Position numbers and translations under genes: made by a program. Below, in pieces: positions 5,819 to 27,939 of a DNA stretch of 53,656 nucleotides (position 1 is the stretch's first letter; each line of letters opens with the position of its first letter). The notes under the pieces are model-generated. The model saw nothing but the letters and a program-made list of their open reading frames with translations. It was not told the origin of the DNA and did no database searches. Source of the DNA: an uncultured Mycoplasmatota bacterium (GTDB lineage: Bacteria; Bacillota_I; Bacilli_A; RF39; UBA660); assembly GCA_948465965.1 (NCBI GenBank), contig CAOJYR010000009.1, positions 1 to 53,656 of the forward strand, written 5' to 3'.

Positions 5819-6475
5819 ATGGATAATACTGTATTTAGAGATATCTCCTATGGTATGTATATTATAGGAAGTAGATTTGATAATAAAAACGTTGGATGTG
5901 TAATTAATACTCTAGTTCAAATAACATCAGAGAATCCCATTATAGCTATCTCACTAAATAAGGATAACTATACCAATGAAGCAATAAGAAAAACAAAAAA
6001 GTTTTCAGCATCAATTATTTCTGAAAAAACAAAGCCCAAAGTAATTTCGAAATTTGGATATTATACATCAAAAGAAATTGATAAATTTAAAGATACTAAT
6101 TACGAAATAATAGATAATATTCCAGTAGTAACAGAGGATATTAGTAGTTATCTAATTTGTGATGTAGTAGATATAATAGATTGTAAAACACATGATATTA
6201 TTTTAGGTAGAGTAAATATAACAAAAAAACAAACGAATAATGTCCCAATGACTTATAAATTTTACCATGAGGTTATTAAAGGAACTTCCCCTAAAAAAGC
6301 TCCTACCTATATTGAAGGAGCAGAAGATAAAAATGCAGTAAAACATCAATGTACAATATGTGGTTATATTTATGATGATGCCAAAGAAAAAATTAGATTT
6401 GATGATTTAGCAGATGATTGGAAATGTCCACTTTGTGGAGTAGGAAAAGATAAATTTATAAAAATAAGCGAATAA
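5819..6475 (+). CDS. Flavin reductase-rubredoxin fusion (high-molecular-weight rubredoxin)
   Basis: This 218-residue protein has an N-terminal FMN-binding split-barrel flavin reductase domain (about residues 1-155). A C-terminal rubredoxin (about 172-216) has both iron-binding knuckles, CTICGY and CPLCGVGKD. This is the architecture of high-molecular-weight rubredoxins, which pass electrons from NAD(P)H to oxidative-stress enzymes in anaerobes. The loop between the two Cys pairs is shorter than in common rubredoxins: it runs [17 protein letters not shown] and lacks the usual Gly/Pro-rich insert. The ATG follows the superoxide reductase TAG with no spacing, so the pair is an operon. It probably supplies that enzyme with electrons. 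Confidence 0.88.
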
Positions 6476-6476
6476 A

Positions 6477-6509
6477 AAATAGATATCAAAATTTATATGA
6501 TATCTATTT
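6477..6509. terminator. Bidirectional intrinsic terminator
   Basis: The perfect 11-bp inverted repeat AAATAGATATC (6477-6487) / GATATCTATTT (6499-6509) has A- and T-rich flanks. It lies between the convergent redox operon and the LCP gene and can end both. Confidence 0.85.
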
Positions 6510-6513
6510 TTCT

Positions 6514-8550: not shown

Positions 8551-8737
8551 AAACATCCTCCACTCTGCAAAATTATACAAATATAATTATAACTAATTTA
8601 TCCTATTTTAGCAAGACTCCCCCAAAAATATCTTAAGTGTAAAATAGCGTAAAATGAAGAAAAAATATGTCGAAAATTAAGAGAAAAAGAGAAAATATTG
8701 CTATAATATAATTGAGAGAATAGATGGAGGTGTATAT

Positions 8738-12469: not shown

Positions 12470-12500
12470 AGGGATGATTTTTCATCTCCTTTATTATATA
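12465..12500 (+). terminator. Intrinsic terminator after the glucosaminidase gene
   Basis: AATAAAGGGATGA pairs with TCATCTCCTTTATT across a short T loop, with one bulge. The stem overlaps the stop codon. Confidence 0.65.
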
Positions 12501-12529
12501 ATAAAAAAGTAGTAAGAAAGGATAAAAAA

Positions 12530-13759
12530 ATGAACGAATTATTAGAAAAATATGCTGAAGTTTTATTAAGCACCTGTCTAAAAGTAGATAAAAACAAACC
12601 ACTATTTATAAGTGCTAATACAGAAGCAATAGAGTTTGTAAGAGTAGTTGCAAATAAGGCCTATAATATAGGAATAACAGATATTTACTTTGATATAACA
12701 GATCCATATTTAATGCACGATGCATTAACAAATCTTGAAATAAAAGATTTAAAAAAACTAACATTTTGGAATAGAGAAATATGGAATGTTTATGCAAAAA
12801 AGGATGCAGCCTTTTTGATGCTTGTATCAAAAACACCTGGATTAATGAAAGATATTAAAGCAGAAAAGCTAACTGAAATGACCAAGTTTATGTATGAAAC
12901 AAGAAAAGATTTTGATGCGCTACGTGCGAAATCATCCCTTGCCTGGTGTATAGCTGCAGTACCAACGAAAGCCTGGGCCAAAGCATTATTTAAAGATGCA
13001 ACAAATCCAACCGATGAATTATGGAATAAAATATTTGAAATATGTAGTATAAAAGAAGAAAATCCAATAGAAGTATGGGAAAGAAAAATAGAAAAATTGG
13101 AAAAGCGCAGCGCTAAATTGAATGAATATAAATTTAAAAAGCTACATTACACAAGCACAAATAAAACAGACTTTACAATTGAACTTCCAGAAAAACATAT
13201 ATGGTCCTCAGGAAATGAAAGACTAGCAAATGGAAAAGATGTATTAGTAAATTTCCCAACAGAGGAAGTATACACATCTCCTGATTGTATGAGTGCAAAT
13301 GGAATAGTTTATAGTTCAAAGCCACTTTGTTATCAGGATACAATCATTAATGAGTTTTCTATTACGTTTAAAAATGGAAAAGCAGTAGCTTGTAGTGCCA
13401 AAGAAGGAGAGGAAACATTAAAGTCAATGATTAACATTTGCGAAAACGCCAATATGCTAGGGGAAGTAGCATTAGTTCCTTATTCATCACCAATTTCAAA
13501 TAGTAACCTAGTGTTTTTAGAAACTTTATATGATGAAAATGCAGCCTGTCATTTAGCTTTAGGTGATTCATTCCCAGAATGCTTTGAAAATGGAACAAAT
13601 ATGTCAAAAGAAGAATTATTTCAACACAATTTAAATCATTGTAAATCACATGTAGATTTTATGATAGGTACAAAAGATTTAAACATCATAGGAACAACAC
13701 AAGATGAAAAAGAAATAGAAATATTTAAAGATGGAAACTTTACAGAAGAATTTAATTAA
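12530..13759 (+). CDS. M29-family metallo-aminopeptidase (AmpS/PepS-like)
   Basis: This 409-residue protein has the length and conserved pattern of M29 aminopeptidases. The N-terminal start MNELLEKYAEVLLSTCLKVDKNKPLFI is typical. The metal-binding C-terminal half contains FPTEEVYTSPD (near residue 243), ALGDSFPECFENG (near 343) and HVDFMIGTKDL (near 375). The family frees N-terminal residues from peptides in the cytoplasm using a two-metal site. There is no signal peptide. The gene stands alone between two terminators, with AAAGGA as its ribosome site. Confidence 0.9.
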   Translation: MNELLEKYAEVLLSTCLKVDKNKPLFISANTEAIEFVRVVANKAYNIGITDIYFDITDPYLMHDALTNLEIKDLKKLTFWNREIWNVYAKKDAAFLMLVSKTPGLMKDIKAEKLTEMTKFMYETRKDFDALRAKSSLAWCIAAVPTKAWAKALFKDATNPTDELWNKIFEICSIKEENPIEVWERKIEKLEKRSAKLNEYKFKKLHYTSTNKTDFTIELPEKHIWSSGNERLANGKDVLVNFPTEEVYTSPDCMSANGIVYSSKPLCYQDTIINEFSITFKNGKAVACSAKEGEETLKSMINICENANMLGEVALVPYSSPISNSNLVFLETLYDENAACHLALGDSFPECFENGTNMSKEELFQHNLNHCKSHVDFMIGTKDLNIIGTTQDEKEIEIFKDGNFTEEFN

Positions 13760-13767
13760 TTATAAAA

Positions 13768-13815
13768 AGAAAAAAGACTGTTAGTAAGAAAAAATTATTA
13801 ATAGTCTTTTATATT
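13768..13815 (+). terminator. Intrinsic terminator of the aminopeptidase gene
   Basis: AAAAGACT (13772-13779) pairs with AGTCTTTT (13803-13810) across an AT-rich loop and is followed by a short T-rich tail. Confidence 0.7.
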
Positions 13816-13833
13816 GATAGATAATGATAGAAA

Positions 13834-13861
13834 TTGACAATTGTATAAAATATGGTACAAT
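13834..13861 (+). promoter_or_regulatory. Strong housekeeping promoter of the toxin-antitoxin operon
   Basis: TTGACA (13834-13839) and TACAAT (13856-13861) are separated by 16 bp. This places transcription start near 13868, just before the ATG at 13880, and rules out the upstream TTG at 13841 as a start. The match to the sigma-A consensus is close. Confidence 0.85.
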
Positions 13862-13879
13862 AAATTAGAGGTTGGTATT

Positions 13880-14128
13880 ATGGAAAAAGAAAAACTATTA
13901 CAAGATTTAGAATATGATTTATTAACTAATTTTATAAAATTGCGAAAAGAGAAAAAACTAACACAACAAGAGCTAGCAAATTTATCAGGAGTAGTTAGAG
14001 AAAAAATCGCAAAAATAGAGAATGGTCTTAATTCTCCACAGATTAATTCTTTGATAAAAATACTAGAACCAATTGGTTACACTATAAAAATTATGCCCAT
14101 AAATGAAGGAGATGATAATAATGGATGA
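13880..14128 (+). CDS. XRE-family helix-turn-helix protein, probable antitoxin
   Basis: This 82-residue protein is nearly all one Cro/CI-type helix-turn-helix: IKLRKEKKLTQQELANLSG, then VREKIAKIENG and IKILEPIGYTI. It lacks a separate C-terminal toxin-binding domain of any size. Its TGA overlaps the start of the next gene by 8 bp, so the two are translationally coupled. With a MazF-like gene behind it, it is best read as the DNA-binding antitoxin that represses its own strong promoter. An ordinary regulator is the alternative. Confidence 0.8.
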   Translation: MEKEKLLQDLEYDLLTNFIKLRKEKKLTQQELANLSGVVREKIAKIENGLNSPQINSLIKILEPIGYTIKIMPINEGDDNNG

Positions 14129-14591
14129 TTTCATAAAAAAAGGATATGAAGAAGGATGGATAAAACCACTAGAGGATGCATTTATTAATAACCCACCAAC
14201 AGAAGAAATTCATAAAGGAGAAATTACTTATTATATCAAGGAAGAAGCTGAGCCATATACTAAATACAAAGTTGGTGATATTGTATATGTAGATAGATAT
14301 ACATATAGTAATAAGAAAGAAGGGAATAATCATCTTTTTGTTATAGTAAGAACTAATTTAGTTGTTGATATAGAATATTTTGGTATGCTAATTTCTTCAA
14401 GAATCGAAAAACTGAAATATAAAGATAATATTTTATTAAAAAGGGATCAAAAAAATAATCTTGATAAAGATAGTATTGTAAAAACTGATTATGTATATGA
14501 AATAAAAGATAAAGACATAAGATGTAAAATAGGAGAAGTAGATAAAGAAAAAATTGATTTATATATTAAAATGAGGCTAGATAAAAAATAA
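14121..14591 (+). CDS. Probable PemK/MazF-like toxin
   Basis: This 156-residue protein has an N-terminal extension of about 50 residues followed by a region with a PemK/MazF-like pattern. KVGDIVYVDRYTYSNKKEGNNHLFVIV resembles the opening beta strands and loop of that fold. The end, with SIVKTDYVYEIKDKDIRCKIGEVDKEK, resembles the closing strands (x-T-D-x-V-x-x-I-x-x-x-x-I-x-x-x-I-G). MazF proteins are sequence-specific mRNA endonucleases. The start at ATG 14121 has AAGGAG upstream, and the gene overlaps the helix-turn-helix gene. The match is partial, so the toxin call is an inference from pattern plus operon. The partner is XRE-type rather than MazE-type. Confidence 0.62.
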   Translation: MDDFIKKGYEEGWIKPLEDAFINNPPTEEIHKGEITYYIKEEAEPYTKYKVGDIVYVDRYTYSNKKEGNNHLFVIVRTNLVVDIEYFGMLISSRIEKLKYKDNILLKRDQKNNLDKDSIVKTDYVYEIKDKDIRCKIGEVDKEKIDLYIKMRLDKK

Positions 14592-14618
14592 AATTCCATA
14601 TTCATTTATGGAATTTTA
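14589..14618. terminator. Bidirectional intrinsic terminator
   Basis: The perfect 12-bp inverted repeat TAAAATTCCATA (14589-14600) / TATGGAATTTTA (14607-14618) lies between the convergent toxin and PASTA genes. Confidence 0.8.
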
Positions 14619-16544
14619 CTTTGCTATTTTAATTGTATAAACAACTCCATTACAACTAGTAACACTACTACCAGGACCAATTCCGCCTACATATGAGCCA
14701 GAACTCATACCTGTATCACCAACACCAACTACACTTAACTTAACATTAGGATAATTACTACTAAAGAAAGAGTATAGTGCAGAAGATACAGCGTCATAAC
14801 TAGAGTAACTATTAAATATATTTCGAATACTTCCACTTACAGTGTATGTTTTAACTTCACAAGCAGGTGTCTTATCACCACTATTATTAGTATTATTACT
14901 TCCAGAATTAGAAGAACCACTAGAACCTGAAGTTGTATTTGAATTAGAGGGCTTTGTGGAAACTTCCTTTTTCTGGGTTACCTCTTTTTTACCATTACTT
15001 AAAGTAACTGTAATAGTTGTACCACTTGATACATTACTTCCTGCACTAATCGATTGACTAATAGCTTTATCTTTACTAACACTACTACTGTTTTTATAAA
15101 CAAAGCTATAACCTAAATCAAGTTTTTTTAGTTTAGAAATAATATCACTTTTTGAAAGCCCAACTAAATTAGGAACCTCACGTTTTTTACCATCAGAAAT
15201 AGTAATTATGATGGTATCATTATTTTTTATAACATCACCCGTTTTGTGAGAATATTTAATAACTTCACCAGCTGCAACATCATTATTAAATTCATACTTT
15301 TCCTCATAATGAATAGAGTATTTATCCGCCCATTCATAAAACTCACTTAATGAAGAAAATTTTGGCATAACTAATTTACCTTTAGAGATAATAACATGAA
15401 TTAAAGTTCCTTGTTCTACTATATCTCCAGTTTTATAATTAGCACTTATTACTTTATTATCTTTAATCTTTTCATCATATTGATCAGCAAATTCTAATTT
15501 TAATCTATTCTTAATAATCCAATTTGTAATCTCCGTAACAGACATATCTTTAAGATTAGGAACCTTTATTTTCTTGCCCTTACTAATCGTAACAATAACT
15601 TTATGGTCTTCATCATTAACCTTAACAGTATCCCCAGCCCTTATACTCTGTTTAGATACATTACCACGTTTAATCTTATTAGAAAATGCATTCTTAATCT
15701 CATAATTAATTTGGTGCTGTTTTAAATAAAACTCTGCCTCAAACTTAGTTTTATTTGTTAAATCTATCATCTTAACTTCACTAAGCTCTTCCTCTCCCAA
15801 AGAGAAAGTAAGCTTCAACGCGTCACTTCTTTTCATATTTCCACTTTTACTTTGTTCTATGACAGTGTCTTTCACCTTATCGGACTTCACAAATTCTACT
15901 GATACATTAGTCAGATAATTCTCATTGATAAAATTTAATGCTCGCTCACTATCCCAGGTAGTCATATCAGGGACAACAACTTCCTTATCTGGACTAGCAC
16001 CATCACTAATAGCTACAGTTAAACTTTTAATATTTTTAATATTAGTACCAGGTTTCATATTTTGACTAATGATATGATATTCGCTAATCATATCACTATA
16101 TTCATATTCTTGATGCAAAGTAATATTGTTTTTGCTTGCCCATGAAACTACTTCAGTTAAGCTTTTGTTGGTAAAATCTTCTACCTTATTATAAGTAGGA
16201 ATAACAATTAACCCCATCGTTGTAACAATACCAACTACATTATACATTGTTAGAATAAAAGCACTCATAAAAGTTGCTGTTTTTTTATTACTATTATTGG
16301 AAAGAGAGGAGAATATAAAGAAGATAGTAAATAAAAATAGTAATAAAATATTTATTAAAATAGATAACATATTTAAATCATTCTCTTTATACAGTAAAGT
16401 AACAACAAAATATATAATACTAGATAACAAAGTGAAAAAAAGCATAGTATTAACAAATGGGTGTCGACGCCTTTTTACAGTTTTACCTATATCATTTTTA
16501 TTTACTATGGGGGTTGCTATTTTCTCGTTCTTTTTCTTACTCAT
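14616..16544 (-). CDS. Kinase-less membrane protein with six PASTA-like repeats
   Basis: This 642-residue protein has a short basic cytoplasmic N-terminus, three membrane segments (about residues 28-115) and six consecutive PASTA-like repeats (about 120-521). The repeats are marked by VPDM, VPNL and MPKF starts and by ISDG, ISKG and LSNG ends. A Ser/Asn/Gly-rich linker follows. The C-terminus is a domain of about 70 residues with two Cys that I do not recognise. PASTA repeats bind peptidoglycan fragments and normally sit behind a Ser/Thr kinase or in penicillin-binding proteins. Neither catalytic domain is present here. ATG 16544 has GAGGTGAT upstream. The inferred role is a wall sensor or scaffold. 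It faces the start of the wall-polymer cluster. Confidence 0.85.
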   Translation of the reverse strand: MSKKKNEKIATPIVNKNDIGKTVKRRRHPFVNTMLFFTLLSSIIYFVVTLLYKENDLNMLSILINILLLFLFTIFFIFSSLSNNSNKKTATFMSAFILTMYNVVGIVTTMGLIVIPTYNKVEDFTNKSLTEVVSWASKNNITLHQEYEYSDMISEYHIISQNMKPGTNIKNIKSLTVAISDGASPDKEVVVPDMTTWDSERALNFINENYLTNVSVEFVKSDKVKDTVIEQSKSGNMKRSDALKLTFSLGEEELSEVKMIDLTNKTKFEAEFYLKQHQINYEIKNAFSNKIKRGNVSKQSIRAGDTVKVNDEDHKVIVTISKGKKIKVPNLKDMSVTEITNWIIKNRLKLEFADQYDEKIKDNKVISANYKTGDIVEQGTLIHVIISKGKLVMPKFSSLSEFYEWADKYSIHYEEKYEFNNDVAAGEVIKYSHKTGDVIKNNDTIIITISDGKKREVPNLVGLSKSDIISKLKKLDLGYSFVYKNSSSVSKDKAISQSISAGSNVSSGTTITVTLSNGKKEVTQKKEVSTKPSNSNTTSGSSGSSNSGSNNTNNSGDKTPACEVKTYTVSGSIRNIFNSYSSYDAVSSALYSFFSSNYPNVKLSVVGVGDTGMSSGSYVGGIGPGSSVTSCNGVVYTIKIAK

Positions 16545-16688: not shown

Positions 16689-19001
16689 ATGGAAGAAAAG
16701 ATCAAGAAAAACTTTAATAAAATATTAGCAATATTTATTTTAATACAGCCAATACTAGACTTAATTACAGGTGTATTTATTCATGTTTTTAATATAAATT
16801 TAACTTTGGGGATTATAATAAGAATGTTATTTTTAATATTTGTAATGATAACAGCAACTTTTATTTATAAAAATACAAAAAATCTAATATATTACTTTGC
16901 TTTCTTAATATATACGTGTCTCTATATTCTAGGAATTATTATATTTAAAGATAGTATAGGACTATTTTCAGAAATACAAGGACTACTTAGAGTATTCTAT
17001 TTTCCATTAATGTTATTATCACTTTATAGTATTAAAGAAGAGTTAAGGATAAGTAAAATGGTTTTAATGACAAGCCTTATTACTTATTTAATTTTAATAT
17101 TTATTCCAAATGCTTTGAATATAGGATTTAAAAGCTATGAAATAACAAAATCAGGAACCCTAGGTTTCTTTAACTCAGCAAATGAGATAAGTGGTATAAT
17201 TTCTATATTAACACCAGTTATGATAACGATATTTTATGAGAGCAAGAAATACGTAATATCAACTTTAATAGGTATTTTATACTTAGTTGTTATATTAACA
17301 ATTGGAACAAAAACACCATTACTATCACTAATAATTACTATATCATTAGCTATTCTATGGCTATGGATAAAAAGCTTAAAACAAAAAAAATACAAGATAA
17401 TAGGAATATCCTTAGTAACGATTTTAATTTTATCATTAGCTGTTATAGCAGTTTTACCAAAAACCAACTTTTATAAGAATATAAAAGTTCATATGGATTA
17501 TTTAAAAGTAGATGATTTAGGAGATATATTAGAAAAACCAAAATTAATTGATCACTTTATCTTTAGCCAGAGATTAACCTTTCTAGATAAAAAACAAAAG
17601 TTGTATAAAGAGTCAACTATATATCAAAAACTATTTGGAATTGGTTATTTAAAAAATGGAAAACAAACAAAAGCGATTGAGATGGATTATTTTGATATTT
17701 ATTATAGTCATGGAATAATTGGTTGTCTTTTATTCTTTATAACCTACATCTATATTTTATTTAAAATATTAAAAAATAGAAAAAAAATAGTCTTTTCAGA
17801 GTATATGTCATATGTAAGTTTACTATTAATAGTTTTCCTATCATTATTTACAGGACATATCATTACTGCACCAGCGGTTAGTATTTTAGTCATAACTATA
17901 ATTTTAATGCTAGAAAAAAAGAAAAAAAGTCTACTTTTTACTTCATATGATCTAAATGTTGGTGGTATAGAAAAAGCATTAATAAATCTAGTCAATAAAA
18001 TTGATTTAAAGAAATATGATGTGAATTTAATCTTAGAAAGTAAAGAAGGATCCTTTTTAAAAGACCTAAATAAAAATATAAATGTAACAGAATATAGAGT
18101 GAATAATAATAAAAATATAATGATAAGAAAATTATTAAATTATATGAGACGAATCCTATTTACAATTTTTAACTATCATAGATACGATTTTAGTTGTTGC
18201 TACGCAACCTATAGTTTAAGTGGAAACAAATTATCTAAAATAGCATCCAAAAACAGTAGTATTTATATTCATAGTAATTATAAGTATGTATATAAAACAG
18301 AAGAAGAATTGAGAGAGTTTTTTGCGATTAGAAAACTAGAAGAATTCAAACATATTCTATTTGTCTCCAACGAAGCAAAAAAAGATTATTTAAACTATTA
18401 TCCCAAACTAAAAGAAAAAACAAAGGTATTTAATAATTTTGTTAATATGGAAGAAATAAAAACACAAGCAAAAAAGAAAATTAGAGAAATAAAACCAAAA
18501 GATAAAAAGTTATTTGTCTTTGTTGGACGTCTTGATGATACATCAAAAAAAGTAGGAAGGGCAATAAATTTGATAAAAGAAACGATTGATACAGAATTAT
18601 GGATTGTAGGTGATGGTCCAGACAGAGAAAAATACCAAGCAATTATAAATGAAAATAAGCTAAATAAAAGAATAAAAATGATCGGGGAGCAACAAAATCC
18701 ATACCCATATATGAATAAAGCAGATTACATAATATTAACATCAGACTACGAGGGATTTCCAGTTATATACTTAGAGGCTATAACCTTACAAAAACAAATC
18801 ATTACAACAATACCAGTAAGTGATGAGGCATTAAGTATTGGTAATAATTATGGAGAAATAATTCCAAAAGATGAAAAACAAATGATAAAAGAAGTGAAAA
18901 GGATATTAAAAGAAAAACAGCAATTAAATAAAATGGATTTAAAAGAAATTCAAAATACGAGAATGAAAAAATTAGAAATGATCTTCGATGAGGTGATGTA
19001 A
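16689..19001 (+). CDS. O-antigen polymerase/ligase-like domain fused to GT4 glycosyltransferase
   Basis: This 770-residue protein joins two units that are usually separate. Residues 1-410 form a many-helix membrane domain resembling the O-antigen ligase/polymerase (Wzy/WaaL) family. That part includes LGFFNSANEISGIISIL near residue 158 and a large extracellular loop with YYSHGIIGCLLFF near 340. Residues 415-770 form a soluble GT4 glycosyltransferase with DLNVGGIEKALINLV at its start, FVGRLDDTSKKVGRAI near 615, and the C-terminal sugar-nucleotide motif TSDYEGFPVIYLEAITL near 685-700. A membrane anchor plus GT, or a polymerase tied to its chain-building enzyme, are both possible. The stop codon overlaps the next ATG (TAATG). 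Confidence 0.82.
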   Translation: MEEKIKKNFNKILAIFILIQPILDLITGVFIHVFNINLTLGIIIRMLFLIFVMITATFIYKNTKNLIYYFAFLIYTCLYILGIIIFKDSIGLFSEIQGLLRVFYFPLMLLSLYSIKEELRISKMVLMTSLITYLILIFIPNALNIGFKSYEITKSGTLGFFNSANEISGIISILTPVMITIFYESKKYVISTLIGILYLVVILTIGTKTPLLSLIITISLAILWLWIKSLKQKKYKIIGISLVTILILSLAVIAVLPKTNFYKNIKVHMDYLKVDDLGDILEKPKLIDHFIFSQRLTFLDKKQKLYKESTIYQKLFGIGYLKNGKQTKAIEMDYFDIYYSHGIIGCLLFFITYIYILFKILKNRKKIVFSEYMSYVSLLLIVFLSLFTGHIITAPAVSILVITIILMLEKKKKSLLFTSYDLNVGGIEKALINLVNKIDLKKYDVNLILESKEGSFLKDLNKNINVTEYRVNNNKNIMIRKLLNYMRRILFTIFNYHRYDFSCCYATYSLSGNKLSKIASKNSSIYIHSNYKYVYKTEEELREFFAIRKLEEFKHILFVSNEAKKDYLNYYPKLKEKTKVFNNFVNMEEIKTQAKKKIREIKPKDKKLFVFVGRLDDTSKKVGRAINLIKETIDTELWIVGDGPDREKYQAIINENKLNKRIKMIGEQQNPYPYMNKADYIILTSDYEGFPVIYLEAITLQKQIITTIPVSDEALSIGNNYGEIIPKDEKQMIKEVKRILKEKQQLNKMDLKEIQNTRMKKLEMIFDEVM

Positions 19002-19921
19002 TGCCAAAATTTAGTATAATTGTTCCTGTTTATAATGTAGAAAAGTATTTAAAAAAATGCTTAGATAGTATAAAGAAGCAAACGTTTAAAGATTATGAAG
19101 TAATTATTGTAAATGATGGAACAAAAGATAATAGTATGAATATAGCTAAGGAATATAATTTTAAAATTGTGAATCAAAAAAATAGCGGATTAAGTGTTGC
19201 TAGAAATACAGGCGTAAAACATGCAACAGGAGAATATTTAATCTTTTTAGATAGTGATGACTATATCGAAAAAGATCTATTAAAAGAAATAAATAAATCT
19301 CTAAAAAACAATCCAGACTTAGTAAGATTTCAGATCAAAGAAGTGTATGAAGATAAAAAGGAAAATAAGGAATATAACGAAGAACCATTTAATAATAAAA
19401 CTGGTGAAGAAGCTTTCCGATTAATTACCAAATATCATTTTGTAGAAAACGCTTGGTGTTATGCCATAAAAAAAGAATATTATAAAAAAGAAAAGTTTTC
19501 ATTTAAGCCTGGTACAATTCATGAAGATTTTGGACTAATTCCATTAGTGATTATAAAATCTAAAAAAGTAAATAGTATTTCCTATATTGGTTATAACTAC
19601 CTTCAAAGACAAGGGAGCATTATGAATAATGATAACTATCAAAAAACACAAAAAAAGGTAAATGACTTCTATAACCATTATCAATTTTTATTAACAGAAA
19701 TAAATAAGACGAAAATAGAGTCTACCTATTTTAAAAGTTTTATTAGTAATAGCTTAATATTAAAAATAACAGAATTAAATAAACAGGACTATAAGTTATA
19801 TAAGAGGAAACTAAAAAAGAAAAAAGTTTATAATAATGTATTAAGCGATACATTATCAAGAAAAATAAAAAAGTTATTCCTAAGGATATCACCTAAGATT
19901 TATTATAAAGTAATAAGGTAA
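19001..19921 (+). CDS. GT2 family glycosyltransferase
   Basis: This 306-residue protein is a GT-A-fold family 2 enzyme. It opens with FSIIVPVYNVEKYLKKCLDS, followed by VNDGTKDNS, an SGLSVARNTG segment and the metal/nucleotide-binding FLDSDDYI (the DXD-type site near residues 84-91). HEDFGLIPL near residue 178 is the usual acceptor-side acidic motif. It has no membrane segments. The start overlaps the stop of the fused polymerase-GT4 gene by 1 bp. It probably adds one sugar to the wall polymer on the cytoplasmic face. Donor and acceptor cannot be read from the sequence. Confidence 0.88.
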   Translation: MPKFSIIVPVYNVEKYLKKCLDSIKKQTFKDYEVIIVNDGTKDNSMNIAKEYNFKIVNQKNSGLSVARNTGVKHATGEYLIFLDSDDYIEKDLLKEINKSLKNNPDLVRFQIKEVYEDKKENKEYNEEPFNNKTGEEAFRLITKYHFVENAWCYAIKKEYYKKEKFSFKPGTIHEDFGLIPLVIIKSKKVNSISYIGYNYLQRQGSIMNNDNYQKTQKKVNDFYNHYQFLLTEINKTKIESTYFKSFISNSLILKITELNKQDYKLYKRKLKKKKVYNNVLSDTLSRKIKKLFLRISPKIYYKVIR

Positions 19922-19977
19922 GTAAAGGAAGAATTAACAAAACAACAATATAATTATAAAGTAGAGGTAAAGATATT

Positions 19978-20949
19978 ATGAAAAATGAAAATAAGAAAAA
20001 ATTAACAGTAATTGTTCCCTGCTATAATGAAGAAGAGTCACTTCCAATTTTTTATGAGGAAATAAAAAAAGTTGCAGAAAGCTTTAAAAAAGAAAAGGTA
20101 GAGTTTGAATTTTTATTTATAAACGATGGATCAATGGATAAAACCCTTGAAATATTAAGAGGTTTATCAAAGAAAGATAAAAGAGTAAGATATATATCAT
20201 TCTCTAGAAACTTTGGAAAAGAAGCGGCTATGTATGCTGGGCTTGAAAACGCGAAAGGAGATTATGTAACATTAATGGATGCAGACCTACAAGATCCACC
20301 AGCTTTGTTAAAAGAAATGTATGATTTAATTACAAAAGAAGATTATGATTGTGTAGGAACAAGAAGAGTAACAAGAAAGGGAGAACCACCAATAAGAAGT
20401 TTCTTTGCTAGATGTTTTTATAAATTAATAAACAAAATCAGCAAAACAGAAATGGTAGATGGAGCAAGAGATTATCGTCTAATGACAAGACAAATGGTAA
20501 ATTCTATTCTAGAAATGAAAGAGTATAATCGCTATTCAAAAGGATTATTTAGCTTTGTTGGATATAAAACAAAATGGTTAGAGTATGAAAATGTAGAAAG
20601 AGTAGCAGGAGAGACAAAATGGAGTTTTTGGAAACTATTAATATATGCGCTAGATGGAATAATAGCATTTTCAACAATGCCATTGATGCTATCAGTTTTA
20701 ATAGGAATACTATTCTGTGTAATTTCATTTATCGCAATAATTGTAATTATAGTAAAAACAATTGCCTGGGGGGATGCTGTTGGAGGTTGGCCTTCGATGG
20801 TATGTATTCTATTTTTCCTAAGCGGAATACAACTATTTTGTATGGGAGTACTAGGAGCCTACTTATCAAAAACATATTTAGAAACAAAAAAAAGACCAAT
20901 CTATATAGTGAAAGAAACAGAACAAAAAGGAAAATGCAATGAAGAATAA
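19978..20949 (+). CDS. GtrB/DPM1-like polyprenyl-phosphate glycosyltransferase
   Basis: This 323-residue protein has a GT2 domain (PCYNEEESLP, FINDGSMDKT, LMDADLQDPP near residue 100). After it come two C-terminal membrane helices (about residues 235-262 and 272-298), as in the YkcC/GtrB family. These enzymes move a sugar from a nucleotide donor to undecaprenyl phosphate, so that it can be flipped and used outside the membrane. Good partners are the GT-C membrane proteins and the GtrA protein later in the cluster. The gene overlaps the next by 11 bp. Confidence 0.85.
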   Translation: MKNENKKKLTVIVPCYNEEESLPIFYEEIKKVAESFKKEKVEFEFLFINDGSMDKTLEILRGLSKKDKRVRYISFSRNFGKEAAMYAGLENAKGDYVTLMDADLQDPPALLKEMYDLITKEDYDCVGTRRVTRKGEPPIRSFFARCFYKLINKISKTEMVDGARDYRLMTRQMVNSILEMKEYNRYSKGLFSFVGYKTKWLEYENVERVAGETKWSFWKLLIYALDGIIAFSTMPLMLSVLIGILFCVISFIAIIVIIVKTIAWGDAVGGWPSMVCILFFLSGIQLFCMGVLGAYLSKTYLETKKRPIYIVKETEQKGKCNEE

Positions 20950-21892
20950 TATTGATATAAGTATAATAGTTCCAATTTATAATGCAGAAAAATACTTAAA
21001 GAAATGCATTGACTCTTTAGTTAATCAAACAAAAAAAGAGCTAGAAATAATTCTAGTTAATGATGGATCAACAGATAACTCTGAAAGAATAATAAAAGAA
21101 TATAAAGATAAGAGAATTAAATATTTTAAAAATAAAAATCAGGGAATAGGAAAAACAAGGAATTTTGGAATAGAACAGGCAACTGGGAAGTACCTAATGT
21201 TTGTAGATAGTGATGATTATATTGAGAAAAATATGTGTAAGTTAATGTTTGATAAGGCATTTTCAAATAGTCTAGATATCGTGGTGTGTGATTATTATAA
21301 AGTAACAGGAAATGAAATGAAGGAAGAAAAAATTAAAGATTATAAAAATACTACCTTAAAAGAGAACCCTTCGTTATTGTTAGAGATTAACTTAGCACCA
21401 TGGAATAAGCTATATAAAACAGACTTAATAAAAAAGAATAATATTAAATTTATAGAAAACTTAAAATATGAAGATGCTCCCTTTGTTTGTGAAGCTCTAG
21501 ACAAAGCAAAAAAAATAGGTAAGATAAATAGAAGTCTAAACTATTACGTAATTCACAAGGAAAGTGAAACAACAGTTAGAGATGAAAAAGTATTTGATAT
21601 TATAAAAATCGTAGATAAAATAAGAAAATATTTCAAAGAAAAAAGTTATGCACAAGAAACTGTGGATACTTTAACTATTAATATCTTAACAAACTATAAT
21701 ATTCAGCAAAGATATCAAAAAGATAAAAAAATTGCAATGAAGTTTATTGATGAAAGTTTCGATTATATGAAAAAAAACATTCCAGACTTTAAAAAAAATC
21801 GTCACTTTAAAGAAAGAAATATGATAAAATCAATAATAGAAAAAAACAAAAGATTAACGAAGTTATATTGCTATATATATAGAAATAAGTAA
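20939..21892 (+). CDS. GT2 family glycosyltransferase
   Basis: This 317-residue family 2 enzyme shows ISIIVPIYNAEKYLKKCIDS, VNDGSTDNSERI, NQGIGKTRNFG and FVDSDDYIEK (the DXD-type site near residues 88-95). APWNKLYKTDLI near residue 150 and YEDAPFVCEAL near 175 are motifs shared with the other GT2 protein at 19001. The similarity suggests the two arose by duplication. It is soluble and lies inside the cluster with an 11-bp overlap to the preceding gene. The sugar specificity is unknown. Confidence 0.88.
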   Translation: MKNNIDISIIVPIYNAEKYLKKCIDSLVNQTKKELEIILVNDGSTDNSERIIKEYKDKRIKYFKNKNQGIGKTRNFGIEQATGKYLMFVDSDDYIEKNMCKLMFDKAFSNSLDIVVCDYYKVTGNEMKEEKIKDYKNTTLKENPSLLLEINLAPWNKLYKTDLIKKNNIKFIENLKYEDAPFVCEALDKAKKIGKINRSLNYYVIHKESETTVRDEKVFDIIKIVDKIRKYFKEKSYAQETVDTLTINILTNYNIQQRYQKDKKIAMKFIDESFDYMKKNIPDFKKNRHFKERNMIKSIIEKNKRLTKLYCYIYRNK

Positions 21893-21914: not shown

Positions 21915-23282
21915 ATGAAAAAATATAATATAATGTTTACCAGTCATCCTGACTACTCTGGGAATTCCAAAGCCTTATTCGAGTACATGAAATCAAAATA
22001 TAAAAGTTTAAATATTTGCTGGACTATCTATGATGATAAAAATAGTGATAAATTAAAAGAGAACGGCATTGATTTTGTAGTGTATGGTAGTAAAGAATTT
22101 GAAGATAAAATGAAAAACACAGATATTGTATTTTTTACCCATGATGAATTAATAAGAGATAAAAAAGAAGGACAAATTTTCATCTATTTAGGTCATGGTA
22201 ACGGAAGTAAAAAATTTGGCCGCATGATTGATGCTAACAAATTAGCTAAAAATGATGATGAATATTTGTACTTAATGAAAAAGAATATTGATTATATAAT
22301 CTGCTCATCAGAATTATATAGAGTTTTATATAATGTGATGTTAGAAGTTGACTATAATAGAATTTTACCATTGGGAACCCCAAGAACAGAATATATTAAT
22401 TCAAAAGAAAGCATCAAAAATTTAGAACTAGTATGTAATAAAGAGCTAGGAAAATACCAAAAGATATTGATGTATTTACCAACATTTAGAAGTGGTTTAG
22501 GAAGAACAGATGATGGCACTTTTTCAAATAATGTTTTAAATATAGATGAATACGATGAACATAACCTTGAGAGATATTTAAAAGAAAATAATTATTTATT
22601 AATCGTAAAATATCACCCCTATGAAACAAACAAAAATATAAAATCAAATTGCGAAAATATAATCTATTTACAAGAGGAAAATTTAAGTAATAATTTATTG
22701 TCATTAACAGAAATATTAGGTGCAGTAGATTTAGTAATTGCAGATTACTCTTCTGCATATTCAGACTTTGTTGCGATAGATAAACCTACTTGTTTTTTAT
22801 TAAATGATCTTGAAGATTACAAAAAATCTAGAGGAATTATATTTAATGATATAGATTTTTGGTGCCCAGGCCCATACATAAATAATATTGATAGTTTTAA
22901 AATTGAAATAAAAAAACTATTAACTGATAAAAAATATTATAGTGAAGAAAGAAAAAAATATACTAAATTAGTCTTTGAAAAAAATACAAAAGATATATCA
23001 AAAAACATTTGTAAAACAATCTTTAATCCATCTTTTAAATTAGAGCCAAAAGAATCTAAAAAAAGTTATGATGATTTGATAGAAGAAAATAATATTTATA
23101 GTAGAAAATTAGAAGAAACTAATCGCATCTTAGAAGAGAATAATAAAAAGAATAATGAGCTTTATTTAGAAATAGAGAAACAAAAAGCACTAGTATATGA
23201 ATTATCTAAAAATCTTGAAACAATCTATAAATCAAAAAGTTGGAAAATGTTAGAAAAATTAAGAAAAGTAGTAAGGAGATAA
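21915..23282 (+). CDS. TagF/TagB-like CDP-alcohol phosphotransferase
   Basis: This 455-residue protein matches the CDP-glycerol glycerophosphotransferase family that builds teichoic acids. Conserved signs are LGHGNGSKKFGR near residue 92, YLPTFRSG near 192, LIVKYHPYE near 230 and DLVIADYSSAYSDFVAIDKP near 275-294. The last 70 residues form a charged coiled coil and a basic tail suited to membrane binding. The family transfers an alcohol phosphate (glycerol, ribitol or other) from a CDP donor. The next two genes could make an unusual CDP-activated amino alcohol, so this enzyme may use that instead of CDP-glycerol. AAAGGAG precedes the ATG. Confidence 0.85.
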   Translation: MKKYNIMFTSHPDYSGNSKALFEYMKSKYKSLNICWTIYDDKNSDKLKENGIDFVVYGSKEFEDKMKNTDIVFFTHDELIRDKKEGQIFIYLGHGNGSKKFGRMIDANKLAKNDDEYLYLMKKNIDYIICSSELYRVLYNVMLEVDYNRILPLGTPRTEYINSKESIKNLELVCNKELGKYQKILMYLPTFRSGLGRTDDGTFSNNVLNIDEYDEHNLERYLKENNYLLIVKYHPYETNKNIKSNCENIIYLQEENLSNNLLSLTEILGAVDLVIADYSSAYSDFVAIDKPTCFLLNDLEDYKKSRGIIFNDIDFWCPGPYINNIDSFKIEIKKLLTDKKYYSEERKKYTKLVFEKNTKDISKNICKTIFNPSFKLEPKESKKSYDDLIEENNIYSRKLEETNRILEENNKKNNELYLEIEKQKALVYELSKNLETIYKSKSWKMLEKLRKVVRR

Positions 23283-23284
23283 AA

Positions 23285-25090
23285 ATGCAAGCATTAATAT
23301 TAGCAGCAGGCATGGGCAAAAGGTTAAAAAAATATACATTAAATAATACCAAATGTATGGTTGAAGTAAATGGTAAAAAGTTGATAGATAGAACAATTAC
23401 GAACTTGATATCATCAAATATTCATAAAATAATTATCGTTATAGGGTATGAAGGACAAAAACTAAAAAATTATTTAGAAAAAAAATATAAGAATGTTGAG
23501 TTTTTATTTATTGAAAATCAAAAATATTCTGAGACCAATAATATTTATTCCTTATATTTGGCAAAAGATGAGTTAGAAAAAGAGGATACTATTCTTTTAG
23601 AATCAGATATAATTTTTGAACAAAAAATTTTAGAAAGACTAATAAAAAGTGAAAATAAAAACATAGCCTTAGTAGCAAAATATGAACAATGGATGGATGG
23701 AACAGTAGTCACTTTAGATGAAGAAGAGAATATAAATGATTTTTTTGAGAAACAAGAATTTAATTATGACAATACAAAAAAGTATTATAAAACAGCAAAT
23801 ATATATAAATTGAGTAAAGAATTTAGTAAAGAATATTATAATCATTTTTTAGAAGCATATATCAAAGTTTTTGATAAAAATGATTACTATGAATCCGTAT
23901 TAAAAGTGGTTAATAGATTTGAAAATAGCACACTAAAAGCACTTGATATTAGTGACTGTAAATGGTATGAGATAGATGACTCGCAAGATTTGGATATTGC
24001 ATCAGTTATTTTTGCAGAGAAGAAGGAAATAGTAAAAAAGTACGAAGAAAGATATGGTGGATATTGGAGATTTAATTCTATTATTGATTTCTGCTATTTA
24101 GTTAATCCATATTTTCCTGACAAACAATATTTTGATAAGATCAAATATTCGTTAAATGATTTACTAGTATCATATCCATCAGGGTTATCCATTCAAAATA
24201 GATTAGCCGCTAATATGTTTAACGTAGATGAAGAGAAAATTATAGTAGGAAATGGAGCTGCAGAATTAATCAACCATTTGCGCTGCATCGTAAAAGGAAG
24301 ATTAGGAGTATTTATCCCAACCTTTAACGAGTATGTAAGATGTTTTCCAGATTGCGAAATTATAAAAATAAATACACAAGAGCAGGATTATAAAATAACA
24401 AAAGAATTAATCTACAATAATATAAATAATGTAGATTCCATAGCTATTATTAATCCCGATAACCCAAGTGGTAATTTTATATCATATGATGATATCATTG
24501 AAGTGATAGAAAAATTTAATAAAAATAAAAAATATATTATTATAGATGAATCGTTCATCGATTTCGCAGAAGAAAGTTGCAGATATACCTTGATAGATGA
24601 TACCATCTTAGAAAAGTATCCATATTTAATCGTAGTAAAAAGTATCAGCAAGTCGTATGGAATGCCAGGAATTAGATTAGGAATACTAACATGTTCTAAT
24701 AAGGAAGTATTAGAAATTATAAGAGAAAACATGCCAGTATGGAACATAAATTCGTTAGGGGAGTATTTTTTACAAACATTCAATTTATTTAAAAATCAGT
24801 ATCTATTATCATGTGACAAAATAGCAGAAGAGAGAAATTGGTTAAAAAGAAAATTAAAGGGACTAAAAAATGTAAAAGTGTATGATTCGCAAGCTAATTA
24901 TATTATGTGTTCTTTAGAAAATATAAATTGTGAAGAACTAGTTTCTAAACTACTATATAACGATAATATATACATAAAAAGATTAAATGCTAAAGAAGGA
25001 TTTCTAAAGGGGAGTAATTTTATAAGAATAGCAGTAAGAAATAGGCACGATAATGAAAAACTTATTAAAGCAATGGAGAAGTATTTATGA
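23285..25090 (+). CDS. Cytidylyltransferase-PLP enzyme fusion (LicC/PntC-like + aminotransferase-fold decarboxylase or transaminase)
   Basis: This 601-residue protein has two complete enzyme domains. Residues 1-240 form a nucleotidyltransferase: LILAAGMGKRLKKYT, then the Lys of NTKCMVEVNG, TNNIYSLYLAKDEL near residue 82, and LLESDIIF near 106. This is the LicC/PntC pattern that activates amino-alcohol or aminophosphonate phosphates with CTP. Residues 255-601 form a class I/II PLP enzyme with INPDNPSG, IIDESFIDF and the Schiff-base Lys in SISKSYGMPGIRLG. It is closest in pattern to HisC, CobD and Ser-phosphate decarboxylase-like proteins. ATG 23285 has AAGGAG 3 bp past the previous stop region; an earlier TTG lacks support. 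It overlaps the next gene by 4 bp. Confidence 0.85.
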   Translation: MQALILAAGMGKRLKKYTLNNTKCMVEVNGKKLIDRTITNLISSNIHKIIIVIGYEGQKLKNYLEKKYKNVEFLFIENQKYSETNNIYSLYLAKDELEKEDTILLESDIIFEQKILERLIKSENKNIALVAKYEQWMDGTVVTLDEEENINDFFEKQEFNYDNTKKYYKTANIYKLSKEFSKEYYNHFLEAYIKVFDKNDYYESVLKVVNRFENSTLKALDISDCKWYEIDDSQDLDIASVIFAEKKEIVKKYEERYGGYWRFNSIIDFCYLVNPYFPDKQYFDKIKYSLNDLLVSYPSGLSIQNRLAANMFNVDEEKIIVGNGAAELINHLRCIVKGRLGVFIPTFNEYVRCFPDCEIIKINTQEQDYKITKELIYNNINNVDSIAIINPDNPSGNFISYDDIIEVIEKFNKNKKYIIIDESFIDFAEESCRYTLIDDTILEKYPYLIVVKSISKSYGMPGIRLGILTCSNKEVLEIIRENMPVWNINSLGEYFLQTFNLFKNQYLLSCDKIAEERNWLKRKLKGLKNVKVYDSQANYIMCSLENINCEELVSKLLYNDNIYIKRLNAKEGFLKGSNFIRIAVRNRHDNEKLIKAMEKYL

Positions 25091-26184
25091 ATGTAACAAT
25101 TATGGGTGCAGGAAATCAGGGAGTATATTTAGCAGTTTTATTATCTAGCAATGGCTATAATGTTAAATTATACACAAATAAAAATTATGGGGATAAAATT
25201 TTTAAATTAATTGATATTGAGGGCGAAAAAGAATTAACAGTAGATACGATAAAGGTAGTTTCGAATATTGAAAATGCAATAAAATATTCTGAATATATTT
25301 TTATTACATATCCTATGTTTCTAAGAAGAGATAAAGTAAAAGAGATAAAAAAATATATAAAGAATAATAGTAATATAGTATTTGTGCCAAATGGGGTAGG
25401 ATCTGAATTATTGTATAATGATATAAAAGAAAAAAATATAAGATTTATTGGGTTAGAAAGAGTTCCAGCAATATGTAGACTTAAAGAGGATAATTGTGTT
25501 GTTGCTATGAGTAGAAAAAAAAGTGTATTGATCAGCTCAATCCCAAAGAATGATACAATTCAAGAAGAATTAGAAAAAATGTTATCTACAACAATTGAGT
25601 ATAATCCTATTTACTTAGCAACATCATTTACTTCATCAAACCCAATATTACATCCATCTAGAATATATAATCTATTTAAATGGTGTGATAAAACTACAGT
25701 CTTTGATGAGAATATTAAATTTTATGCCTCTTGGAATGATGACTCTTCAAAAACTCTCATCAATTGCGATGATGAAATGAGAAAAGTATTATGTTCTATT
25801 ACAAATAATAAATATAATAAAATCCCAGTAACAGAGCATTATGATTCTGTTGATTTTAGAACATTAACAAAAAAGATTCGTTCAATAGAATCATTTAAAA
25901 ATATTTATGCGCCATTAAAGAAAATAGATAACCATTATACTATTGATTTAAACTCTAGATATTTTAAAGAGGACTTTGAATATGGATTATGTACGTATAA
26001 GGGATATGCCTTATTATGTGGTGTAAAAACACCACATATAGATAATATTATCTATTGGTATCAAAATTTAATAGGAAAAGAGTATATTAAAGATGGTAAT
26101 CTTGGGAATGACTATAAAGAAACAGGAATGCCTCAAGCATATGGGATAACAAAAATAGATCAATTAAAATATTTAAAGCAATAA
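25087..26184 (+). CDS. Opine (octopine/nopaline)-type dehydrogenase
   Basis: This 365-residue protein starts with a Rossmann fold (VTIMGAGNQGVYLAVLLSSNG). Near residue 198 it has SSNPILHPSRIYNLF, which matches the NPxxHP catalytic-His motif of the octopine/nopaline dehydrogenase family. GVKTPHIDNIIYW near residue 318 also fits the family. These enzymes reductively join an amino group to a 2-oxo acid using NAD(P)H. Presence in a wall-polymer cluster, with a 4-bp overlap to the cytidylyltransferase-PLP fusion, suggests that its amine substrate is the amino-alcohol phosphate made by that protein. A plain hydroxy-acid or ketone reductase is an alternative. Confidence 0.75.
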   Translation: MNVTIMGAGNQGVYLAVLLSSNGYNVKLYTNKNYGDKIFKLIDIEGEKELTVDTIKVVSNIENAIKYSEYIFITYPMFLRRDKVKEIKKYIKNNSNIVFVPNGVGSELLYNDIKEKNIRFIGLERVPAICRLKEDNCVVAMSRKKSVLISSIPKNDTIQEELEKMLSTTIEYNPIYLATSFTSSNPILHPSRIYNLFKWCDKTTVFDENIKFYASWNDDSSKTLINCDDEMRKVLCSITNNKYNKIPVTEHYDSVDFRTLTKKIRSIESFKNIYAPLKKIDNHYTIDLNSRYFKEDFEYGLCTYKGYALLCGVKTPHIDNIIYWYQNLIGKEYIKDGNLGNDYKETGMPQAYGITKIDQLKYLKQ

Positions 26185-26223: not shown

Positions 26224-26255
26224 TAAAAAGAATGAAAAATGAAAGAAGGACAAAA

Positions 26256-27068
26256 ATGACAGCAATAAAAAATATATGGGGAAATTTTAAAAAATATAAA
26301 TTTTTAATGATGCAATTAATATCTAGAGATTTTAAGGTAAAGTATAAGCGTTCAGTTTTAGGTGTGTTATGGTCAATATTGCAGCCAGTTTTAATGATGA
26401 CTGTTATGGCCATTGTATTTTCACAGATGTTCAGATTCAAAGTAGAAGGTACAAATTATTTGGTATATTTAATGACAGGATTAATAATGTTCAACTATTT
26501 TAGTGAAGCCTCATCCAACGCAATGACCTCAGTTGTATATAACTTCACACTAATAAATAAGGTATATATACCAAAATACATTTTCCCAATAGCGAAGTGC
26601 TTATTTGTGGGAATAAACTTTTTATTCACATTAATACCATGGATTGCAATAATTCTACTATCATATGTAGGATTGGGAGAATATCCTGCTAGTATTAATG
26701 CGTGGTATATATTATTGCCATATATATTCGCATGCTTATTCATGTTCACATTAGGAATAGGAATGATTGTATCTTGTATTTCTGTATTTTTAAGAGACAT
26801 GTTCTATATTTATTCAATAATACTAACAATATGGAATTATTTGACACCAGTATTTTATAGTATAGAAATTTTGCCAACTAGTTTGCAAACATTATTTAAA
26901 ATAAATCCATTATATATGTTTATATCTGGCGCTAGAAGTATAGTTTTATATGGTCAAAGACCGTCATTAATACAATTAGGAACTATGGGATTAATAAGCA
27001 TTGTAACTATGATAATTGGCTTATTAATCTTTAAAAGAAAACAAGATAAATTTATCTATTATGTATAG
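26256..27068 (+). CDS. ABC-2 type polysaccharide/teichoic acid export permease (TagG/Wzm-like)
   Basis: This 270-residue protein has an amphipathic N-terminus (LMMQLISRDFKVKYKRSVLG) and about six membrane helices. The signature SVLGVLWSILQPVLMM belongs to the TagG/Wzm/RfbA exporter family. The last residues KRKQDKFIYYV are also typical. It forms the membrane channel through which the lipid-linked polymer crosses. I chose ATG 26256, which has GAAGGA upstream; an earlier ATG at 26232 has no site. Its ATPase is the next gene. Confidence 0.9.
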   Translation: MTAIKNIWGNFKKYKFLMMQLISRDFKVKYKRSVLGVLWSILQPVLMMTVMAIVFSQMFRFKVEGTNYLVYLMTGLIMFNYFSEASSNAMTSVVYNFTLINKVYIPKYIFPIAKCLFVGINFLFTLIPWIAIILLSYVGLGEYPASINAWYILLPYIFACLFMFTLGIGMIVSCISVFLRDMFYIYSIILTIWNYLTPVFYSIEILPTSLQTLFKINPLYMFISGARSIVLYGQRPSLIQLGTMGLISIVTMIIGLLIFKRKQDKFIYYV

Positions 27069-27201: not shown

Positions 27202-27939
27202 ATGATAAATCTTAAAAATGTTTCAATGAAATTCAATTTAGGAATTGAAGCAACATCTTTTAAAGAAACCTTTATATCATTATTTTCTAAGAAAAAAAAG
27301 AAAAAAACAAATAATGATTTTTGGGCATTACAGGATGTATCCTTTGGAGTAAAAAAAGGAGAGGTAATAGGACTAATTGGTAGTAATGGTGCCGGAAAAA
27401 GTACACTTTTAAAAGTGGTTAGTGGTGTTATGAAGCCAACTAAAGGAAAGGTAACAGTTAAGGGTGTTATTTCACCAATGATTGAATTGGGGGCAGGATT
27501 TGATGCCGAATTAACTGCAAGAGAAAATATCTATTTAAATGGGGCAATTCTAGGTTATTCGAAGAAATTTATTGATCAAAAATTTGATGAAATAGTAGAA
27601 TTCTCAGAGTTAAAAGACTTTTTAGAAGTACCTATTAAAAACTTTTCATCTGGTATGACAGCAAAACTTGCATTTTCAATAGCAACCATAGTTAATCCAG
27701 AGATACTAATCGTTGATGAAATATTATCAGTAGGGGATATAAAATTTCAGGAAAAAAGTAAAAATAAAATGTTAGAGATGATTAATGGAGGAACAACAGT
27801 ATTATACGTTTCCCATACATTGGCTTCAATTAGAGAATTATGCACAAAAGTAATTTGGTTGGAGCATGGTGTAGTTCAAATGGTTGGAGACCCAAAAAAA
27901 GTTTGTGATGCTTATTATAAAAAACAAATGGAAAAGTAG
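27202..27939 (+). CDS. ABC transporter ATPase for polysaccharide/teichoic acid export (TagH/Wzt-like)
   Basis: This 245-residue nucleotide-binding domain has Walker A (GSNGAGKST near residue 62), the signature NFSSGM, Walker B (ILIVDEILSVGD) and the H-loop SH (YVSHTLAS). The order and spacing match exporters such as TagH and Wzt. It ends right after the ATPase core and has no C-terminal carbohydrate-binding extension, so chain selection must lie elsewhere. A gap of 133 bp separates it from the permease gene. The gap holds no gene, and the ribosome site (GTGGG) is weak. Confidence 0.9.
   Translation: MINLKNVSMKFNLGIEATSFKETFISLFSKKKKKKTNNDFWALQDVSFGVKKGEVIGLIGSNGAGKSTLLKVVSGVMKPTKGKVTVKGVISPMIELGAGFDAELTARENIYLNGAILGYSKKFIDQKFDEIVEFSELKDFLEVPIKNFSSGMTAKLAFSIATIVNPEILIVDEILSVGDIKFQEKSKNKMLEMINGGTTVLYVSHTLASIRELCTKVIWLEHGVVQMVGDPKKVCDAYYKKQMEK

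Follow-up and report, generated by a model that had tools for sequence, protein, structure and literature searches.

N-(1-Carboxyethyl)ethanolamine phosphate has been reported chemically in Proteus mirabilis O14, in a Gram-negative O-antigen. No biosynthetic genes for this group were found in the literature searched, and we know of no reductive alkylation of a nucleotide-activated amino alcohol by an opine dehydrogenase. 2-Amino-4-phosphonobutyrate is the phosphonate isostere of phosphoserine (CH2 in place of O). FrbH, of FR-900098 biosynthesis in Streptomyces, is reported to cytidylylate this compound and then decarboxylate it (PMC8976061). In PntC, Lys25 serves the CTP chemistry, while the substrate's primary amine is held by Glu104 and Glu196, where LicC has Asp; the CTP-site Lys is essential (PMC6697681). 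Campylobacter Cj1436 is a serine-phosphate decarboxylase, and Cj1437 converts dihydroxyacetone (phosphate) to serinol phosphate (PMC12409886). In octopine dehydrogenase, Glu142 and Trp278 bind the guanidinium group of L-arginine (PMC2924402).

The locus described here lies in a contig of an uncultured Mycoplasmatota bacterium, a Gram-positive of gut type. The window, that is, the whole stretch of DNA analysed, is 53,656 nucleotides in length, and the host genome is a 1.29-Mb draft that is 93.6% complete. According to the window ORFs, with frames re-checked, one gene run contains a TagF-like gene, a fusion of a cytidylyltransferase with a PLP enzyme (the fusion), an octopine-type opine dehydrogenase (ODH), and then a Wzm/Wzt-type exporter:

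16689-21892, + strand: polymer genes 5' of the TagF-like gene, an O-antigen-ligase-like/GT4 fusion and three GT2 glycosyltransferases (Pfam)
21915-23282, + strand: divergent TagF-like CDP-alcohol phosphotransferase, 455 aa (Pfam Glyphos_transf 7.6e-55; TarL 8va1 2.4e-13)
23285-24004, + strand: LicC/PntC-type cytidylyltransferase domain, fusion residues 1 to about 240 (NTP_transferase 1.4e-15; PDB LicC 1jyk, PntC 6pd1)
24005-25090, + strand: PLP domain of the fusion, residues about 241-601, predicted phospho-amino-acid decarboxylase (Aminotran_1_2 2e-31 over about 255-601; 6oux 1.4e-44)
25087-26184, + strand: ODH, 365 aa, predicted N-carboxyalkylation enzyme (Octopine_DH 1.4e-25; PDB octopine dehydrogenase 8.4e-27)
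26232-27068, + strand: ABC-2 permease of the Wzm type, polysaccharide exporter (ABC2_membrane 2.2e-18; NCBIfam Wzm 8.4e-18, under cut-off)
27202-27939, + strand: ABC ATPase of the TagH/Wzt type (TagH 3.1e-59 and Wzt 8.5e-59, both under equivalog cut-offs)

The initial annotation had described three tightly linked genes with a 4-bp overlap of the last two, and the ORFs, Pfam matches and PDB matches bear this out. The fusion (23285-25090) and the ODH (25087-26184) share 4 bp, and the NPILHP motif claimed for an octopine/nopaline-type dehydrogenase is present in the ODH along with its Octopine_DH match (1.4e-25). The fusion ORF is open from a TTG at 23240. The ATG at 23285 is the likelier start, since it lies 2 bp past the tagF stop and has AAGGAG ahead of it.

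The ligase-like/GT4 protein upstream matches O-antigen_lig (1.3e-52) and Glycos_transf_1 in Pfam. It is a single 770-aa protein (16689-19001) composed of an O-antigen-ligase/polymerase-like membrane domain and a GT4 glycosyltransferase. The GT2 enzymes were called by Glycos_transf_2, and the one at 19001-19921 was called from its translation by eye. This upstream protein, the glycosyltransferases, the Wzm/Wzt-type exporter downstream and an LCP-family gene in the window mark the locus as a polymer locus. The LCP-family gene (6514-8580, - strand) encodes a PASTA domain, and its protein shows a weak periplasmic phosphonate-binding-type match that is barely above the Pfam cut-off. The window also encodes a 642-aa protein (14616-16544, - strand) that has five PASTA repeats but in which Pfam detects neither a kinase nor a transpeptidase domain, and a lysozyme-like GH25 protein with many ricin-B lectin repeats (35952-38381). 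A MazF/PemK-like toxin gene is located at 14103-14591, and the short ORF ahead of it (13841-14128) may be its antitoxin.

The TagF-like protein has TarL (8va1) as its sole PDB match. The alignment spans residues 131-329 and includes the KYHP and DYSS stretches. The protein belongs to the broad Glyphos_transf family and lies outside the TagF/TarL polymerase equivalogs, scoring under the NCBIfam equivalog cut-offs for TarF (67 against 550 bits), TarL (56 against 1000) and TarB (47 against 500). Its predicted role is to pass the completed phosphoryl group on to the polymer.

The fusion resembles FrbH in its domain plan, the only basis on which the two were compared, with an N-terminal cytidylyltransferase and a C-terminal PLP decarboxylase in one chain; the essential CTP-site Lys is also present. 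FrbH belongs to an aminophosphonate and antibiotic context, whereas the window holds a surface-polymer locus without a PEP mutase and with an ODH after the fusion. In the CYTIDYLYLTRANSFERASE domain of the fusion, Lys23, Glu106, and Glu203 are invariant in 12 fusions and correspond to Lys25, Glu104, and Glu196 of PntC; Asp108 corresponds to the adjacent Asp. The domain carries the sequence features of LicC/PntC enzymes, namely the G-x-G-x-R signature, the catalytic Lys and the acidic metal/amine residues. The Lic (LicC-LicD) and PntC systems likewise activate a small amine phosph(on)ate with CTP, and most relatives of the window locus share transfer by LicD. They differ in that, at the window locus, a PLP enzyme would produce the amine de novo and the ODH would modify its nitrogen, in a host without a PEP mutase. 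Retention of the PntC-like amine-binding glutamates suggests that the primary amine is still free when CTP is used, so that N-carboxyalkylation would come afterwards, on the CDP compound. CTP activation before N-carboxyalkylation is considered probable.

The best PDB match of the PLP domain is 6oux (SMUL_1544 type; 156-180 bits), with CobD-like and HisC structures behind it. A tree of 21 sequences was constructed for the PLP enzymes, with Cj1436, Cj1437, and FrbH not among them. The fusion PLP domains and a Bradyrhizobium split version join the annotated norcobamide serine-O-phosphate decarboxylase with support of 100/98. This clade adjoins CobD and is split from HisC at 98/92, which places the fusion PLP domain with the serine-O-phosphate/CobD-type decarboxylases and favours decarboxylation over transamination of dihydroxyacetone phosphate. 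The SMUL_1544-type and CobD enzymes share this clade with the window domain, but are stand-alone cobamide enzymes, whereas the window PLP domain is fused to a cytidylyltransferase. Its nearest relative (L058, 49%) comes from another family, suggesting lateral gain. The predicted structure of the fusion has a mean pLDDT of 57 and was left unused.

An AlphaFold model of the ODH (mean pLDDT 79) aligns with the Pecten maximus octopine dehydrogenase structure 3iqd over 359 residues (Z 34.9, rmsd 3.2). ODH His189, Arg291, and Asp296 correspond to the catalytic His212, Arg324, and Asp329. The Octopine_DH match, the fold, the catalytic His-Asp pair and the Arg sensor place the ODH with the octopine/nopaline type. 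Its clade does not belong with the arginine-specific octopine dehydrogenases, as its members have Glu, Asp or Gln at position 142 and a residue other than Trp at position 278. Compared with the Pecten enzyme (3c7a/3iqd), the clade thus lacks a conserved Glu142, and it has an invariant Arg125 in place of Thr143 and Lys263 in place of Ala296. Arg125 is also common to solitary relatives of the ODH. Lys263 and Lys271 are invariant in 12 of 12 locus-type ODHs, are replaced in the solitary sub-clade by Ala and mostly by Leu, respectively, and align with Ala296 and Lys304 of octopine dehydrogenase. According to the tree, the solitary sub-clade lost both lysines just once. Residues of this basic kind would suit an amine carrying phosphate or CDP, and the ODH is predicted to N-carboxyalkylate an amino-alcohol phosphate or its CDP form.

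The ODH is unique within the window's own family, where the other matches in 242 genomes are weak N-terminal Rossmann matches or chance. An apparent ODH fragment in one genome (G229, 857-aa frame) was rejected as a chance match within a repeat protein. No ODH relatives were found in viral contigs (scan) or phages (tblastn). Annotated ODH matches on plasmids (Burkholderia, Serratia) were rejected as examples of this module because other gene sets surround them; the Serratia copy sits in a siderophore/opine-metallophore-like locus.

A contig scan with two N-terminal ODH patterns identified at least five loci. Together with whole-genome searches, it placed full-length locus-type ODHs in at least 11 genomes. 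A PLP enzyme and a CTP transferase lie within about 10 kb of the ODH in nine of 11 locus-type genomes as against none of eight with solitary ODHs (one locus per genome; Fisher p 7e-4, kinship not corrected for). LicD or TagF is present in eight of the 11, counted in the same way. The linkage of fusion and ODH is not chance.

The fusion is directly followed by the ODH in the window and in loci L040, L041, L089, and L090, of which L041, L089, and L090 also contain LicD. Locus L040 (Candidatus Gastranaerophilales) has a 4-bp fusion/ODH overlap in a two-gene unit amid unrelated genes. In locus L041 (Mogibacterium timidum ATCC 33093), LicD lies ahead of the fusion and a second ODH copy lies about 3 kb further. 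In locus L038 the genes are unfused and run TagF, cytidylyltransferase, PLP enzyme, ODH, and LicD, each part being 29-32% identical to its window counterpart. In genome G409, LicD adjoins the ODH on one contig and the fusion is on a different contig. In locus L091 the ODH stands by itself, and its genome lacks the fusion. The eight sampled solitary ODHs (L095-L102) are 413-444 residues in length, have no gene for a PLP enzyme, CTP transferase, LicD or TagF nearby, and come from genomes without the fusion. They are from the order of Mogibacterium and are nested in the locus-type clade beside L089, which makes them appear to be a lineage that has dropped out of the system.

An alternative module is present in the Gastranaerophilales order:

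L092, 7154-10671; L093, 2751-5420; L094, 5946-10510: class V PhnW-like aminotransferase, TagD-type cytidylyltransferase (g3p_cytidyltrns 7e-32 to 1.5e-30) and ODH, with LicD in L092 and L094

The TagD-type cytidylyltransferase (PF01467) belongs to a superfamily that differs from that of LicC. Two enzymes have thus been replaced by unrelated ones of the same predicted roles, while the ODH and usually LicD are retained. This is the strongest sign that the ODH uses the product of the PLP and CTP steps. The three modules probably make a related N-carboxyalkyl amino-alcohol phosphate, perhaps derived from serinol.

The fusion is also common without an ODH (L045, L046, G389, G512, and G140). In L045 (Fusobacterium vincentii, 8225-11869), overlapping genes for a formyltransferase, the fusion and a DUF1015 protein lie in an O-antigen-type locus with LicD nearby. 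The formyltransferase gene is 5' of the fusion, and the DUF1015 gene is 3' with a 14-bp overlap. The only natural PDB relatives of this DUF1015 protein are free serine kinase and a homologue, which are weak matches (E 0.012); it may supply phosphoserine. In L046 (Gloeothece), a SAM methyltransferase and LicD come after the fusion. More distant, FrbH-like fusions, borne on plasmids of Rahnella and Erwinia (L047 and L048), lie beside CDP-alcohol phosphatidyltransferase genes (5716-15788). Priestia megaterium plasmid pBM700 (L050, 2534-10638) carries another such fusion beside a second DXP reductoisomerase gene and ATP-grasp genes, possibly for a fosmidomycin-like compound with a resistance copy. 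Locus L051 has a split version of the fusion beside a PEP mutase. This wide occurrence without the ODH indicates that the fusion is a platform and that the ODH is one of several possible tailoring partners, and not a required one. The methyltransferase and formyltransferase would act on the same amine. As a tentative proposal, the ODH clade may reductively alkylate CDP-ethanolamine or CDP-serinol within an interchangeable system, in which an ODH, an N-methyltransferase or a formyltransferase, depending on the bacterium, tailors the same CDP-amine platform and so varies how surface polymers are charged.

Our main reading, with a probability of roughly 0.6, is that an N-carboxyalkylated, nucleotide-activated amino-alcohol phosphate decorates or builds an exported wall or surface polymer. 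The general pathway is itself considered likely. The sequences themselves show the enzyme families, the layout of the operon, the retention of catalytic residues, the recurrence and the non-homologous replacement. The amine, the oxo acid, the order of the first two steps and the acceptor are inferred. The fusion would activate O-phospho-L-serine, or ethanolamine phosphate derived from it, with CTP, and the PLP domain would remove CO2 to give CDP-ethanolamine in an FrbH-like manner. The free amino group of CDP-ethanolamine would be joined by the ODH to a 2-oxo acid, which is probably pyruvate, with NAD(P)H as the reductant, and the product would be CDP-N-(1-carboxyethyl)ethanolamine. The phosphoryl group would be passed to a glycan by the TagF-like enzyme here and by LicD elsewhere, and the chain would be exported by the Wzm/Wzt-type transporter. 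The predicted product is the group found in the Proteus mirabilis O14 O-antigen. All the enzymes come from known families; as far as the literature was searched, no description was found of this gene set or of alkylation of a nucleotide-linked CDP-amine.

The core idea of the initial annotation (an amino-alcohol phosphate, its activation with CTP, N-carboxyalkylation and transfer to the surface) is upheld by the recurrence across phyla and the non-homologous replacement. Within that outline, the PLP domain would still make an amino-alcohol phosphate, but of the two reactions offered for it the tree favours phosphoserine decarboxylation over the dihydroxyacetone phosphate route. Activation with CTP by the N-terminal domain fits the retained PntC catalytic and amine residues, and is now placed, as probable, before alkylation. 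The status of the fusion has also been revised. Counting against the main reading are the divergence of the window TagF, the frequent fusions without an ODH, and the lone ODH of L091 in a fusion-less genome.

Given the pathway, the amine is somewhat better explained by phosphoserine and ethanolamine than by serinol or another amine; the PLP grouping and the FrbH-like build of the fusion make CDP-ethanolamine, derived from phosphoserine, the favoured candidate, and the weak match of the L045 DUF1015 protein to free serine kinase agrees with this. No SerC and no DUF1015 match was found in the host genome (93.6% complete), which leaves phosphoserine without a visible source and counts against the main reading. 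The same is true of the L038 PLP enzyme, which falls with HisC, and of the class V aminotransferases of L092-L094, as both suggest that the precursor in these cases is a keto- or aldehyde-phosphate. Dihydroxyacetone phosphate might instead be transaminated to serinol phosphate, converted to CDP-serinol, N-carboxyalkylated and moved by the TagF-like enzyme. CDP-serinol is the amino analogue of CDP-glycerol. Serinol phosphate is the 2-amino analogue of glycerol phosphate, the usual TagF/TagD substrate, and the lack of SerC and the TagD-type and class V genes that take the place of the fusion in L092-L094 agree with this route, as does the formation of serinol phosphate by Cj1437 in Campylobacter (PMC12409886). 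It is nevertheless judged unlikely, as serine-O-phosphate decarboxylase, rather than HisC, is the partner of the window PLP domain (in the tree without Cj1437), and FrbH-type fusions decarboxylate. The reverse order of steps, with the free amino-alcohol phosphate N-carboxyalkylated before activation with CTP, is less improbable than the serinol route but still doubtful. Gene content alone does not settle the order, and small free amines are substrates of known opine dehydrogenases. Against it, Glu106 and Glu203 match the primary-amine holders of PntC, where an extra carboxylate would be unfavourable.

It is improbable that the ODH acts on an unrelated polymer amine, such as an amino acid or amino sugar, and is near the fusion only through a shared polysaccharide locus. 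Amino acids are the usual substrates of opine dehydrogenases, and alanopine and N-(1-carboxyethyl)lysine are found in O-antigens (PMC10609480). However, the fusion and ODH of L040 form their overlapping unit amid non-polysaccharide genes, the ODH is accompanied by differing CTP transferases and PLP enzymes, and the solitary sub-clade has lost the lysines that go with locus membership. Phosphonate tailoring, with 2-aminoethylphosphonate as the amine and the module as a variant of the Pnt pathway, would account for the PntC-like domain, the PhnW-like aminotransferases of L092-L094, and the two PEP mutases of genome G1337, and is very improbable. A search for PEP mutase gave nothing above the cut-off in the host genome, nor in 12 of the 13 further genomes searched. 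The best host match scores 18.4 bits against a cut-off of 31.5, which places the host outside the Pnt pathway, and the G1337 mutases are on contigs other than its ODH contig. The absence of PEP mutase points to phosphate rather than phosphonate chemistry.

If the main reading is true, these would be genes for N-carboxyalkylated amino-alcohol phosphates on the surfaces of Bacillota and Melainabacteria, and a new reaction is predicted on a nucleotide-linked amine. Mogibacterium timidum is a culturable oral species carrying the locus, making direct testing possible. N-carboxyalkyl groups alter the charge of the surface and could be targeted by phages or the immune system, and the tailoring gene beside the fusion would predict what the surface amine carries.
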